Shown here: positions 10,539-45,883 of the stretch, piece by piece
Layout of the letters: each line of letters starts with the position of its first letter
Position numbering within the stretch: position 1 is the first letter of the stretch
Origin: Acidimicrobiaceae bacterium
GTDB taxonomy: Bacteria; Actinomycetota; Acidimicrobiia; Acidimicrobiales; Ilumatobacteraceae
Length of the DNA: 48,348 nt
Reading direction: 5' to 3'
Assembly (NCBI GenBank): GCA_024641005.1
Contig: JAHEDX010000027.1
Location: 1 to 48,348 of the forward strand
Translations under genes and position numbers: made by a program
The notes under the pieces: model-generated
Told to the model about the DNA's origin: nothing
The model's input: the letters and a program-made list of their open reading frames with translations, nothing else
The model's database searches: none

Positions 10539-11294
10539 CTAGAGCGCGATCGACATCCCGCCGTCGACGAGCAGCACCTGACCGTTGACGTACGATGCCT
10601 CGTCGGACGCCAGGAACACCGCTGCCGCAGCGATCTCGTGAGGGCGACCCCAACGTGCAGCAGGCGTGCGGTCGATGACCATCTGGTTGAACGCTGCGTC
10701 ATTGACCAGTGGGGTGTTCATCTCGGTGGCGACGTAACCGGGGCCGATCGCGTTGACCGTGATGCCGTGCGGTGCCAGTTCGACCGCGAGCGCCCGGGTC
10801 AGCCCGGCGATCGCACTCTTGCTGGCGACATAGGCCGGGATCGTCGGCCGAGCTATCTGCCCCATGACGGACCCGGTGTTGATGATCCTGCCGCCGCCGG
10901 CACCCATCATGTGCACCGCGGCGGCCCGCGCCAGCGCGAACGGGGCATCGAGATTGACCCCCATCACCCGGTCCCACTCGTGCTGCTCGAAGTCGGCGAG
11001 CGGCGACCGGTGCTGGATCCCCGCATTGTTCACCAGGATGTCGATCGCCCCGTGACGTTCGACGACCGTCTCCACTGCGGCCGTGGCGGCGGAGAGGTCG
11101 GCGACGTCGAAGGCGATGCCGGACGATCGGCCGGTACCGAGCGAGAGTTCGGCGGCCTTGGCCCACACCGCTTGCTCGGTGCGCCCGTTGACGACCACAT
11201 GAGCGCCGACACCCACCATCGCCTGCGCCATCGCCCATCCGAGCCCACGGGTACTCCCCGTGATCAGCGCCACCTTGCCATCGAGCCGGAACAT
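10539..11294 (-). CDS. SDR-family oxidoreductase (gluconate 5-dehydrogenase-like)
   Basis: A 251-aa classical short-chain dehydrogenase/reductase. The cofactor motif TGSTRGLG lies near residues 13-20, NNAG near 88-91, and the catalytic triad in NTGSVMGQ (Ser) and PAYVASKSA (Tyr, Lys). The C-terminal GPGYVATEMN and WGRPHEIAAAAVFLASDEASYVNGQ are typical of NAD(P)-dependent SDRs close to gluconate 5-dehydrogenase and 3-ketoacyl reductases; the true substrate is unknown. Its ATG shares one base with the stop codon of the preceding HesB-like gene (TGATG), so translation of the two is likely coupled. Neither is part of the usual rne-rplU neighbourhood. Confidence 0.88.
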   Translation of the reverse strand: MFRLDGKVALITGSTRGLGWAMAQAMVGVGAHVVVNGRTEQAVWAKAAELSLGTGRSSGIAFDVADLSAATAAVETVVERHGAIDILVNNAGIQHRSPLADFEQHEWDRVMGVNLDAPFALARAAAVHMMGAGGGRIINTGSVMGQIARPTIPAYVASKSAIAGLTRALAVELAPHGITVNAIGPGYVATEMNTPLVNDAAFNQMVIDRTPAARWGRPHEIAAAAVFLASDEASYVNGQVLLVDGGMSIAL

Positions 11295-11602
11295 CAGCAG
11301 GCCTCCCCTGGGTCGCCGCTGCGACCATCGTCGGCGAGCTCGACGACGAGGTTCTTCACGAAGCGACCCCTCGTCGTGATCCGCATGCGAGATGCCATGC
11401 CCGAGAGCACCGGCGTCACGAGGATGCGGTACTCAGGGTGCCGGATGCGGCTGTACGGCGCAAGGTTCTTGTTGGTCGTGTTGGTGTCGACCGACACCTC
11501 TGCCACCTTGCCTCAACCGGTCGGCCGGATGAAGTCGATCGTCATCGTGCCGCCCCGTTTGGCAAGGAGTTCTTTGGCCTCGTCGGTGATCTCGATCTTC
11601 AT
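11294..11602 (-). CDS. Putative selenoprotein, HesB-like (CC/Se motif) family; in-frame TGA read as selenocysteine
   Basis: A 102-aa reading frame if TGA at 11515-11513 (codon 30) is read as Sec. The N-terminal part is MKIEITDEAKELLAKRGG, then TMTIDFIRPTG, the TGA, and GKVAEVSVD in the same frame. The downstream part contains APYSRIRHPEYRILV and ends near RFVKNLVVELADD. This is the layout I recall for small HesB/IscA-related proteins with a redox-active Cys or Sec in a Gly-X-Gly turn. Codons on both sides of the TGA have the same very high third-position GC as neighbouring genes. AGGAAGGA lies 8 bases before the ATG, and the final TGA overlaps the SDR start. A SECIS-like hairpin follows the internal TGA. 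Alternatives are a truncated 29-aa peptide plus a separate GTG-started 70-aa frame at 11506, a recent nonsense mutation, or a sequence error. The biochemical role of the family is not established. Confidence 0.72.
11460..11512 (-). promoter_or_regulatory. SECIS-like hairpin directly after the in-frame TGA
   Basis: Reading the minus strand from the base after the TGA: 14 bases, then GGTGTC (11498-11493), loop GGTC (11492-11489), then GACACC (11488-11483), a perfect 6-bp stem. The apical loop begins 20 bases after the TGA and starts with G. Both fit the published bacterial SECIS rules (loop about 16-37 bases from the UGA, G in its first two positions). An outer stem GCAAGGT (11511-11505) pairs with ACCTTGC (11466-11460). 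The GGUC apex matches, from memory, that of E. coli fdhF. Confidence 0.65.
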
Positions 11603-11621
11603 GTTCGTGTCCTTCCTCGGC

Positions 11622-11676: not shown

Positions 11677-13731
11677 TCAGTCGAGCAACGTGTGGTCGAC
11701 GAGCACACCGCGCCCTTCGCAATCGGGGCAAATCTCCGAGAACTCGGTCAGCAGACCCTCTCCGATGCGTTTGCGCGTCATCTCGACCAGACCGAGTTCG
11801 GAGATGTCGAACACCTGGGTGCGGGTCTTGTCGCGTGCAAGCGCATCCCGGAATGCGGCCACGACCTTGGCGCGATTGTCTTTGATCTCCATGTCGATGA
11901 AGTCGATCACGATGATGCCACCGATGTCGCGGAGACGAAGCTGTTTGGCAATCTCCTCGGCGGCTTCCATGTTGTTGTGGAAGACCGTCTCTTCGAGATT
12001 CGACTTGCCGACGTTCTTGCCGGTGTTGACGTCGATCACGGTCAAGGCCTCGGTGTGCTCGATGATCAACGAGCCGCCCGAGGGCAGCCACACCTTGCGG
12101 TCGAGCGCCTTGTGGACCTGCTCGTGCACATGGAAGCGTTCGAATACCGTGAGACCCTCGGCGGCGGCGTCGTAGAACTCGATACGGTCGGCGAGCTCGG
12201 GGTTGAAGGCTTCGACGTAGTCGCGAACCTCTTCGTAGAGCCGCTGGTCGTCGATGACGACACCGCGATAATCGGAGTTGAACTCCTCGCGGATGACTCG
12301 CACCGCCAGCTCCGGCTCACGATAGAGCAGCGCAGGACGGTTGGCTTTCTGCGCCCTGCGTTCGATCTCCTCCCACTGCTTGAGCAGGACGTTCATGTCG
12401 GCCTCGAGGTCGCTCTCGGTGGCATGTTCGGCGGCGGTTCGCACGATCAGGCCATGCTGTTCGGGCTTGACCCGATCGAGGATGTTTCGGAGCCTCTTTC
12501 GGGTGTCGTCGGGGAGCCGCTTCGAAATCCCGTAGGTCTTCGAATTCGGGATGAGCACCACGAACCGGCCCGGTAGTGACACCTCCTGGGTCAACCGGGC
12601 ACCCTTGGCACCGATCGGGTTCTTGGTCACCTGGCACATGATCATCTGCCGGGCCTTGAGGATGTCCTCGATGCGGGCATTCCTGCCCTTTTCCTCGATG
12701 TCCTCGGCGTCGTATTGGACATCGCCGCGGTACAGCACGGCGTTCTTCGGTGTGGCGATGTCGACGAACGCCGCCTCCATGCCGGGCAGGACGTTCTGCA
12801 CCCGTCCGAGATAGATGTTGCCGTGGATCTGGCTGACGTCATCTGAGGGACGGGACACATAATGCTCGATCAGGTTGCGGCCTTCGAGCACGCCGACCTG
12901 CGCCATGCCCGGACGCACCTGGACACACATGAAATACCGGCCGATCGGTTTGCCGTTGCGCTCGCGACCCTTGCGCTGCTCGATCAGCTCCTGCTCGGCA
13001 GCGTTGGGCTTCGATCGCCCGCGACCACCACGGCGCTTCTTGCGCTGGCCGTCGCCGCCGCTCTGGCCCGCGTCGGCACCCGACCCGTTTCGCTTGGACT
13101 GGGCCGCCCTCGACGGCCGCTCGGACTTCGCCTGCTCCTGATCTGCCGCGTCGCTCACTTGTTTGCCGCCTCCGCCTCCGCCGCCACGCTTGCGACGCCG
13201 ATTTGTCGACTTGGAACCGGTTCCTGCGGCAACGGAGGGTGAACCATCGCCGCTGCGGGCCGGGCCCGGCGGCGGCACCGATGGCACGACCGGGGTGCGG
13301 GTGTCACCGATCTGGGGTTTACGAACCAGCGACCTCTCGGCGGCGTCGACGTCTTGGACACGACCTTCCCGCATCGGTTCGGGCAGTTCGTCGGGCGTGA
13401 CGCCACCTGCCGGGGCCCCTGATGCATCAGGGTCGTCCGAGTCGTCGGATCCACCGGAGTCACCCGTATCGGGCTTGCGGCGCCCCTGGCCGCCACGCGA
13501 GCCGCGACGGCGCTTGCGCTGGGCATTGTCACCGTCGGACCCGGCATCCGTGTCGGGGCCGTCGTCGTTCGCATCGCCCGGGCGATCGGGCTCGGTGCCG
13601 ACGGCAGACGCGTCGGTGGACGACGGCTTCTCGCTCTTCGCCTGGTCAGCCGCCGATCTGTCCGCCGGCGTGCCGGCATCGTCTGACGAGGAATCGAAGG
13701 CGTCGTCCTTCTGCGTCGTGGTGTCGTCCAT
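11677..13731 (-). CDS. rne: Ribonuclease E/G
   Basis: A 684-aa endoribonuclease of the RNase E/G family, which initiates mRNA decay and processes structured RNA. Residues 1 to about 265 are a disordered, charged extension with Arg/Gly tracts (KRRRGSRGGQGRRKP and RKKRRGGRGRSKP), typical of actinobacterial enzymes. The catalytic half begins near RYFMCVQVRPGMAQVGVLEG and includes an S1 region (IYLGRVQNVLPGMEAAFVDI). The two metal-binding Asp motifs are in LTVIDVNTGK and IIVIDFIDME. The Zn-link Cys pair CPDC (668-671) is close to the C-terminus, so there is no C-terminal degradosome scaffold. ATG 13731 is preceded by GAAGGGA. The gene follows the radical-SAM-linked pair in the conserved order. 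Confidence 0.95.
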   Translation of the reverse strand: MDDTTTQKDDAFDSSSDDAGTPADRSAADQAKSEKPSSTDASAVGTEPDRPGDANDDGPDTDAGSDGDNAQRKRRRGSRGGQGRRKPDTGDSGGSDDSDDPDASGAPAGGVTPDELPEPMREGRVQDVDAAERSLVRKPQIGDTRTPVVPSVPPPGPARSGDGSPSVAAGTGSKSTNRRRKRGGGGGGGKQVSDAADQEQAKSERPSRAAQSKRNGSGADAGQSGGDGQRKKRRGGRGRSKPNAAEQELIEQRKGRERNGKPIGRYFMCVQVRPGMAQVGVLEGRNLIEHYVSRPSDDVSQIHGNIYLGRVQNVLPGMEAAFVDIATPKNAVLYRGDVQYDAEDIEEKGRNARIEDILKARQMIMCQVTKNPIGAKGARLTQEVSLPGRFVVLIPNSKTYGISKRLPDDTRKRLRNILDRVKPEQHGLIVRTAAEHATESDLEADMNVLLKQWEEIERRAQKANRPALLYREPELAVRVIREEFNSDYRGVVIDDQRLYEEVRDYVEAFNPELADRIEFYDAAAEGLTVFERFHVHEQVHKALDRKVWLPSGGSLIIEHTEALTVIDVNTGKNVGKSNLEETVFHNNMEAAEEIAKQLRLRDIGGIIVIDFIDMEIKDNRAKVVAAFRDALARDKTRTQVFDISELGLVEMTRKRIGEGLLTEFSEICPDCEGRGVLVDHTLLD

Positions 13732-45515: not shown

Positions 45516-45883
<368 letters not shown>

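Follow-up and report, generated by a model that had tools for sequence, protein, structure and literature searches.

The CC/Se motif family (NF041239, Moor_selen_rel) is a family of selenoproteins predicted in Moorella thermoacetica, for which the available text of PMC13188914 gives a single selenocysteine (Sec) and the motif CxxU. Double selenoproteins, with two Sec in one chain, and 'UXX-star' selenoproteins are also listed in the accessible part of that source, MbdU (NF045648) and NF041211 being examples. The bacterial SECIS element (bSECIS) is described by a set of rules: a loop of 3-9 nt with G within its first two positions, a stem of 4-16 bp, a distance of 16-37 nt from the UGA and an MFE of at most -7.5 (PMC13188914).

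The gene described here lies on the minus strand of the window, which is the whole stretch of DNA analysed (48,348 nucleotides from an Acidimicrobiaceae bacterium). As the original prediction had it, the frame runs from an ATG, preceded by a Shine-Dalgarno-like sequence, through a TGA at codon 30 set within Gly-TGA-Gly, and on for 72 more codons to a stop overlapping the following frame's ATG by a single base (Table 1). The high GC at third codon positions continues across the TGA, the values for positions 1/2/3 being 0.52/0.41/0.83 before it and 0.61/0.49/0.88 after it. The neighbouring frames were named by eye; in one relative (L025) the frame in the corresponding upstream place is RNase_E_G (Pfam), and gene neighbours vary from clade to clade. 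Elsewhere in the window, a bacterial class A RNase P RNA is found at 45523-45880 on the plus strand (206 bits).

Table 1. Positions of the selenoprotein gene, its elements and its neighbours in the window.
Feature	Position	Strand	Remark
Selenoprotein gene, divergent from but related to the CC/Se motif family (predicted)	11294..11602	-	102 aa with one Sec, TGA read as Sec
ATG start	11602-11600	-	
Shine-Dalgarno-like AGGAAGGA	11610..11617	-	7 nt 5' of the ATG
UGA codon 30, predicted to be read as selenocysteine	11513..11515	-	31 homologous genes, this one among them, have TGA; 4 have TGC/TGT
Putative SECIS hairpin GGUGUC-GGUC-GACACC	11483..11498	-	loop 11489-11492, 20 nt past the UGA
Cys102, C-terminal	11297..11299	-	near the place of a Cys or second Sec in relatives (alignments, sequences)
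True stop TGA	11294..11296	-	one base in common with the ATG of the next frame
Downstream overlapping frame, short-chain dehydrogenase-like (by eye)	10539..11294	-	outside the selenoprotein
Upstream frame, ribonuclease E/G-like (by eye)	11677..13731	-	

Codon 30 and its hairpin

Of 296 genomes of the class Acidimicrobiia, 21 gave a homologue in a search with the single protein, the source genome included, each with exactly one TGA within the match. A 29-row profile recovered the same 21 class genomes, ten of them now with two TGA because the match extends to the C-terminus, and in none of these 21 was a Cys form found at the main site. At the level of the phylum, a profile matched 12 of 396 genomes, 4 in the same family and 8 in other classes; the 8 homologues outside the class carry, at the same place, either TGA (4) or a Cys codon (4). 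A further search of 138 genomes from one order of the class gave 16 matches, six of them new, which brings the Sec genes to 21 + 4 + 6 = 31. In the alignment the TGA stands at the same place in the homologues, and amino-acid conservation crosses it in the 29 aligned members. The UGA has homology on both sides and gives way to Cys in some homologues, a pattern that marks bacterial selenoprotein genes.

The frame could instead end at the TGA, leaving a 29-aa peptide or a pseudogene, with the downstream part in decay or forming a separate gene. Translation under table 11 does stop at codon 30, which is the truncation that had been foreseen for automatic annotation, and a 70-aa internal frame can be opened from a GTG. 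Such an early end is very improbable, given the conservation across the TGA in the aligned members, the continuation of four homologues through a Cys codon, the retention of TGA in 31 genes and the presence of Sec machinery in the genome.

That machinery is complete in the source assembly (4.14 Mb in 175 contigs, 94% complete). The tRNA-Sec scores 65.6 bits and has the anticodon UCA (ARAGORN); selA (400.9 bits) adjoins selB (264.7 bits), whose frame carries a SelB-wing_3 domain, and selD scores 325.8 bits, all four being above their cut-offs. UGA seems to be decoded at another locus of this genome too, since a formate dehydrogenase alpha-like frame (L075, G000:C44:3225-5096; 651.5 bits, just below the model cut-off of 666.25) has one in-frame TGA within the matched stretch, in the context N-I-D-S-C-N-R-T-U-H-A-P-S, followed by a predicted hairpin GUGGUC-GGUCU-GGCCAC. 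This hairpin resembles that of the window gene in having GGUC in its apex, with the loop 18 nt past the UGA, but differs in stem sequence and in its 5-nt GGUCU loop.

The hairpin of the window gene, found as originally described with its loop 20 bases 3' of the TGA, conforms to the published bSECIS rules of spacing and loop (6 bp, GGUC, 20 nt), and the 16-mer on its own folds at -8.1 kcal/mol. All 25 Sec genes first compared have a stem of 6-7 bp closing GGUC at 20 nt, none was found in the 4 Cys genes, and the six Sec genes found later all have the same hairpin (6/6). Being the same in 31 of 31 Sec genes, it is beyond chance.

A hairpin 3' of a stop codon can increase readthrough, and the element could on that account be a stimulator of UGA readthrough by near-cognate insertion. 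We give this very little credence, as tRNA-Sec, selA, selB and selD are all in the genome, Cys is the residue in each of the 4 sense-codon homologues, and the GGUC apex is common to the hairpin of the genome's own formate dehydrogenase. It could also be argued that only the protein motif EVSVDT is conserved, with no RNA element at all, and the 25 Sec genes do indeed all have V-S-V-D-T, nearly all of them with the E before it. What makes this account hardly credible is the codons themselves: GAG GTG TCG GTC GAC shows zero synonymous variation in the 25 genes (one gene has CAG as the first codon), while the other 16 conserved columns show synonymous variation of 0.41 to 1.95 bits. Moreover, the four Cys homologues differ at this site, reading E-A-A-I-D-T (two), E-V-A-I-D-T or E-I-A-F-D-T, and they have no hairpin, a change of motif that is expected once an RNA constraint has been lifted. 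Judged from these comparisons, strong constraint at the level of RNA holds the UGA and its neighbouring hairpin together, and the Cys homologues lack both.

RNA folds, which were computed without the ribosome, vary among homologues outside the hairpin core. In a 45-nt fold, four outer pairs surround the core, where the original prediction has an outer stem of 7 bp. Folds of 48 nt contain the core in 25 of 25 Sec genes, the window's own included, and folds of 60 nt contain the hairpin in 22 of 25, it being missing from the 60-nt minimum-energy fold of the window's own RNA and of L022 and L025; in folds begun at nt 14 the hairpin is present in 19 of 25 genes and absent in 6. We regard the conservation of the site as stronger evidence than these folds, although no covariation could be obtained from it, the sequence being too conserved among the Sec genes.

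With the machinery present, homologues aligning across the TGA, Cys in four of them and a hairpin of the bSECIS type, the codon-30 UGA is very probably read as selenocysteine and the gene a genuine selenoprotein gene, as first proposed. By analogy with Sec decoding as established in bacteria, SelB, together with GTP and Sec-tRNA(Sec), would bind the GGUC apex, and insertion of Sec at UGA30 would yield the 102-aa protein.

Relation to the CC/Se motif and HesB/IscA families

The only significant family match of the window protein is to NF041239, at 23.2 bits against a cut-off of 40. With E allowed up to 10, every one of the 29 aligned members is matched by this model, the best at 7e-9. Homology at profile level extends over nearly the whole length, hhalign giving 98.1% (E 9.7e-14) against 5 of the 12 phylum matches of NF041239, 3 above and 2 below cut-off; L079 and L082 (above cut-off) were excluded from this set, and L085, L086, L087, L089 and L090 were already in the 29-row alignment. 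The phylum matches of NF041239 show C-C-G, and it is with the second Cys of this motif that Sec30 aligns, the first Cys being, by alignment, missing in the clade. None of the 29 members has a C-C or C-Sec pair, each having G, S or H in the first position. The clade differs from the family as the available text of PMC13188914 presents it (CxxU, one Sec) in its G/S/H-U-G and in the two TGA of 16 relatives. On this profile evidence we class the clade as divergent but related to the CC/Se motif family.

The link to HesB is weaker. When the clade was compared with 20 HesB/IscA proteins from the class (20 of 30 loci), the probability was 71.6% and the match collinear, placing Sec30 over the invariant Cys of a G-G-C-S-G loop. 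No match to PF01521 or TIGR01911 was found for any of the 29 members at E up to 10. Like the A-type carriers (PF01521), the clade has a Cys near the C-terminus, but the invariant C-terminal C-G-C-G of those proteins is absent from it. The original description of the protein as small and HesB-like, of the CC/Se motif kind, is thus upheld for CC/Se at the level of profiles, though below the score cut-off, and the clade can be called HesB-like only tentatively.

In A-type carriers, the loop Cys cooperates with the C-terminal C-G-C. Sec30 and the C-terminal Cys or Sec of the present clade look like two ends of one reactive or metal-binding site in the same manner, the C-terminus of relatives having Cys, Cys-Cys, Cys-x-x-Cys or else an apparent second Sec with His on both sides. 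Pfam assigned no family to the protein, and no solved structure was matched significantly by sequence (one match at E 1.2, none in a second comparison). A structure model from the single sequence was poor (pLDDT 56); the fold matches of this low-confidence model were weak, with no IscA among the matches listed. It is possible, and we put it forward with less than even confidence, that a single active or metal-binding site is made up by Sec30 and the C-terminal Cys on a scaffold like that of HesB/IscA, serving thiol/selenol redox chemistry or the handling of a soft metal or Fe-S unit. Redox or soft-metal chemistry, the two not being distinguished, is our best guess at the role.

The second TGA in relatives

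The gene in the window encodes a single Sec and has Cys as its last residue; no SECIS-like hairpin was found past its final TGA, where at most 3 pairs form. Sixteen genes from a single order, 10 among the 21 of the class and all six later ones, have a second in-frame TGA near the C-terminus, within the motif H-x-H-x(3)-U-x-H and with a stop two or three residues on. This apparent second Sec does not figure in the original prediction. Two other Sec homologues (L038 and L039, family f6) end in CPINLVR followed by TGA and are without H-x-H-x(3)-C/U-x-H.

In these 16 relatives the second TGA might be an ordinary stop and the hairpin after it a terminator, as the hairpins are mostly G+C-rich and extend beyond the gene end, and the next stop is again TGA in 8 of 16. 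In 16 of 16, nevertheless, x-H, x-H-G or x-H-D stands between the second TGA and the next stop, and Cys takes the place of that TGA in L031, L033, L049-L051 and L055.

The hairpin itself also speaks against a terminator. Its loop starts with GG or GU 17-22 nt past the second TGA. Under a strict rule (uninterrupted stem of at least 6, loop GGU or GGUC) it is found in 8 of 10 second-TGA genes as against 53 of 50000 shuffles, and at the terminal stops of the 19 other members the best stem is 2. Under a looser rule (one mismatch allowed, loop of 3-5 nt starting GG or GU), at least 6 pairs are formed in 16 of 16 genes, a count that is not independent because the rule was set after all sixteen were known. 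The looser rule also picks up 1005 of 32000 shuffles and one of the 19 control terminal stops (L055, 7 pairs), but none of 18 last-Cys positions. Taken alone, the six later genes include four with a GGUC loop and at least 6 pairs, one mismatch being allowed; the other two are L126, with the loop GUU, and L121, with a weaker stem. The hairpin covaries: stem sequences at the second site diverge widely, and pairing is kept in 87 of 91 cells over 13 distinct hairpins, the arms having been placed by hand and L121 and the duplicate L032 excluded. When the arms are shuffled, the mean is 55.6 and 87 is reached in 0 of 20000 shuffles.

The reading of the second TGA as a stop before a terminator is, in our view, unlikely. 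The 16 relatives are apparently double selenoproteins, with a putative second SECIS lying largely in the 3' untranslated region. Two Sec in one chain would be a trait in common with the double selenoproteins listed, beside the 'UXX-star' selenoproteins, in the accessible part of PMC13188914. From its name, we take UXX-star to mean a Sec three residues before the stop. The models for these proteins, reportedly the work of Haft and Tolstoy 2025, gave no match to the 29 aligned members, three rows of which are incomplete at the C-terminus. No description of the clade or of its second Sec was found in the openly accessible literature searched, which included the available text of PMC13188914, PMC1794560, PMC5029168 and PMC2398784.

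Selenocysteine use in the class

The original prediction held that Sec use is not widely described in this lineage. In text searches a single paper naming selenocysteine together with Acidimicrobiia or Acidimicrobiales was found; in the genomes Sec use is common, since selA is above cut-off in 200 of the 296 class genomes. All 21 class genomes with a homologue have selA, compared with 200/296 overall (hypergeometric p 2e-4, uncorrected for kinship). Two further observations concern selA in the class. In at least 12 of 40 class genomes (G015:C44, G036:C72 and G039:C78, for example) the contig that carries selA also has a HesB/IscA gene (PF01521) no more than about 10 kb away, and many genomes of about 1 Mb in the genus g65 (family f29) have two selA matches each, which may be weak second hits, split genes or paralogues.

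We lean slightly towards seeing in these genes an undescribed clade with Sec and never Cys at the main site (27 class genomes), in one order of which a second Sec stands in H-x-H-x(3)-U-x-H with its SECIS mostly past the stop; such a protein of about 100 residues would have a selenium-histidine site and may bind metal through two selenolates.

Cut at codon 30 by the standard code and scoring below the cut-off of the only family model that matches it, the protein is likely to be missed by annotation; L075 would likewise be truncated under the standard code. By the presence of selA in 200 of 296 genomes, the class is marked as a common user of selenocysteine. The Sec homologues with the hairpin and the Cys homologues without it amount to an experiment of nature on the constraint that an RNA element places on a protein. 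The two-Sec forms, if truly such, would be very small proteins with a defined selenium-rich C-terminal motif, and would provide a case of a bacterial SECIS largely within the 3' untranslated region.
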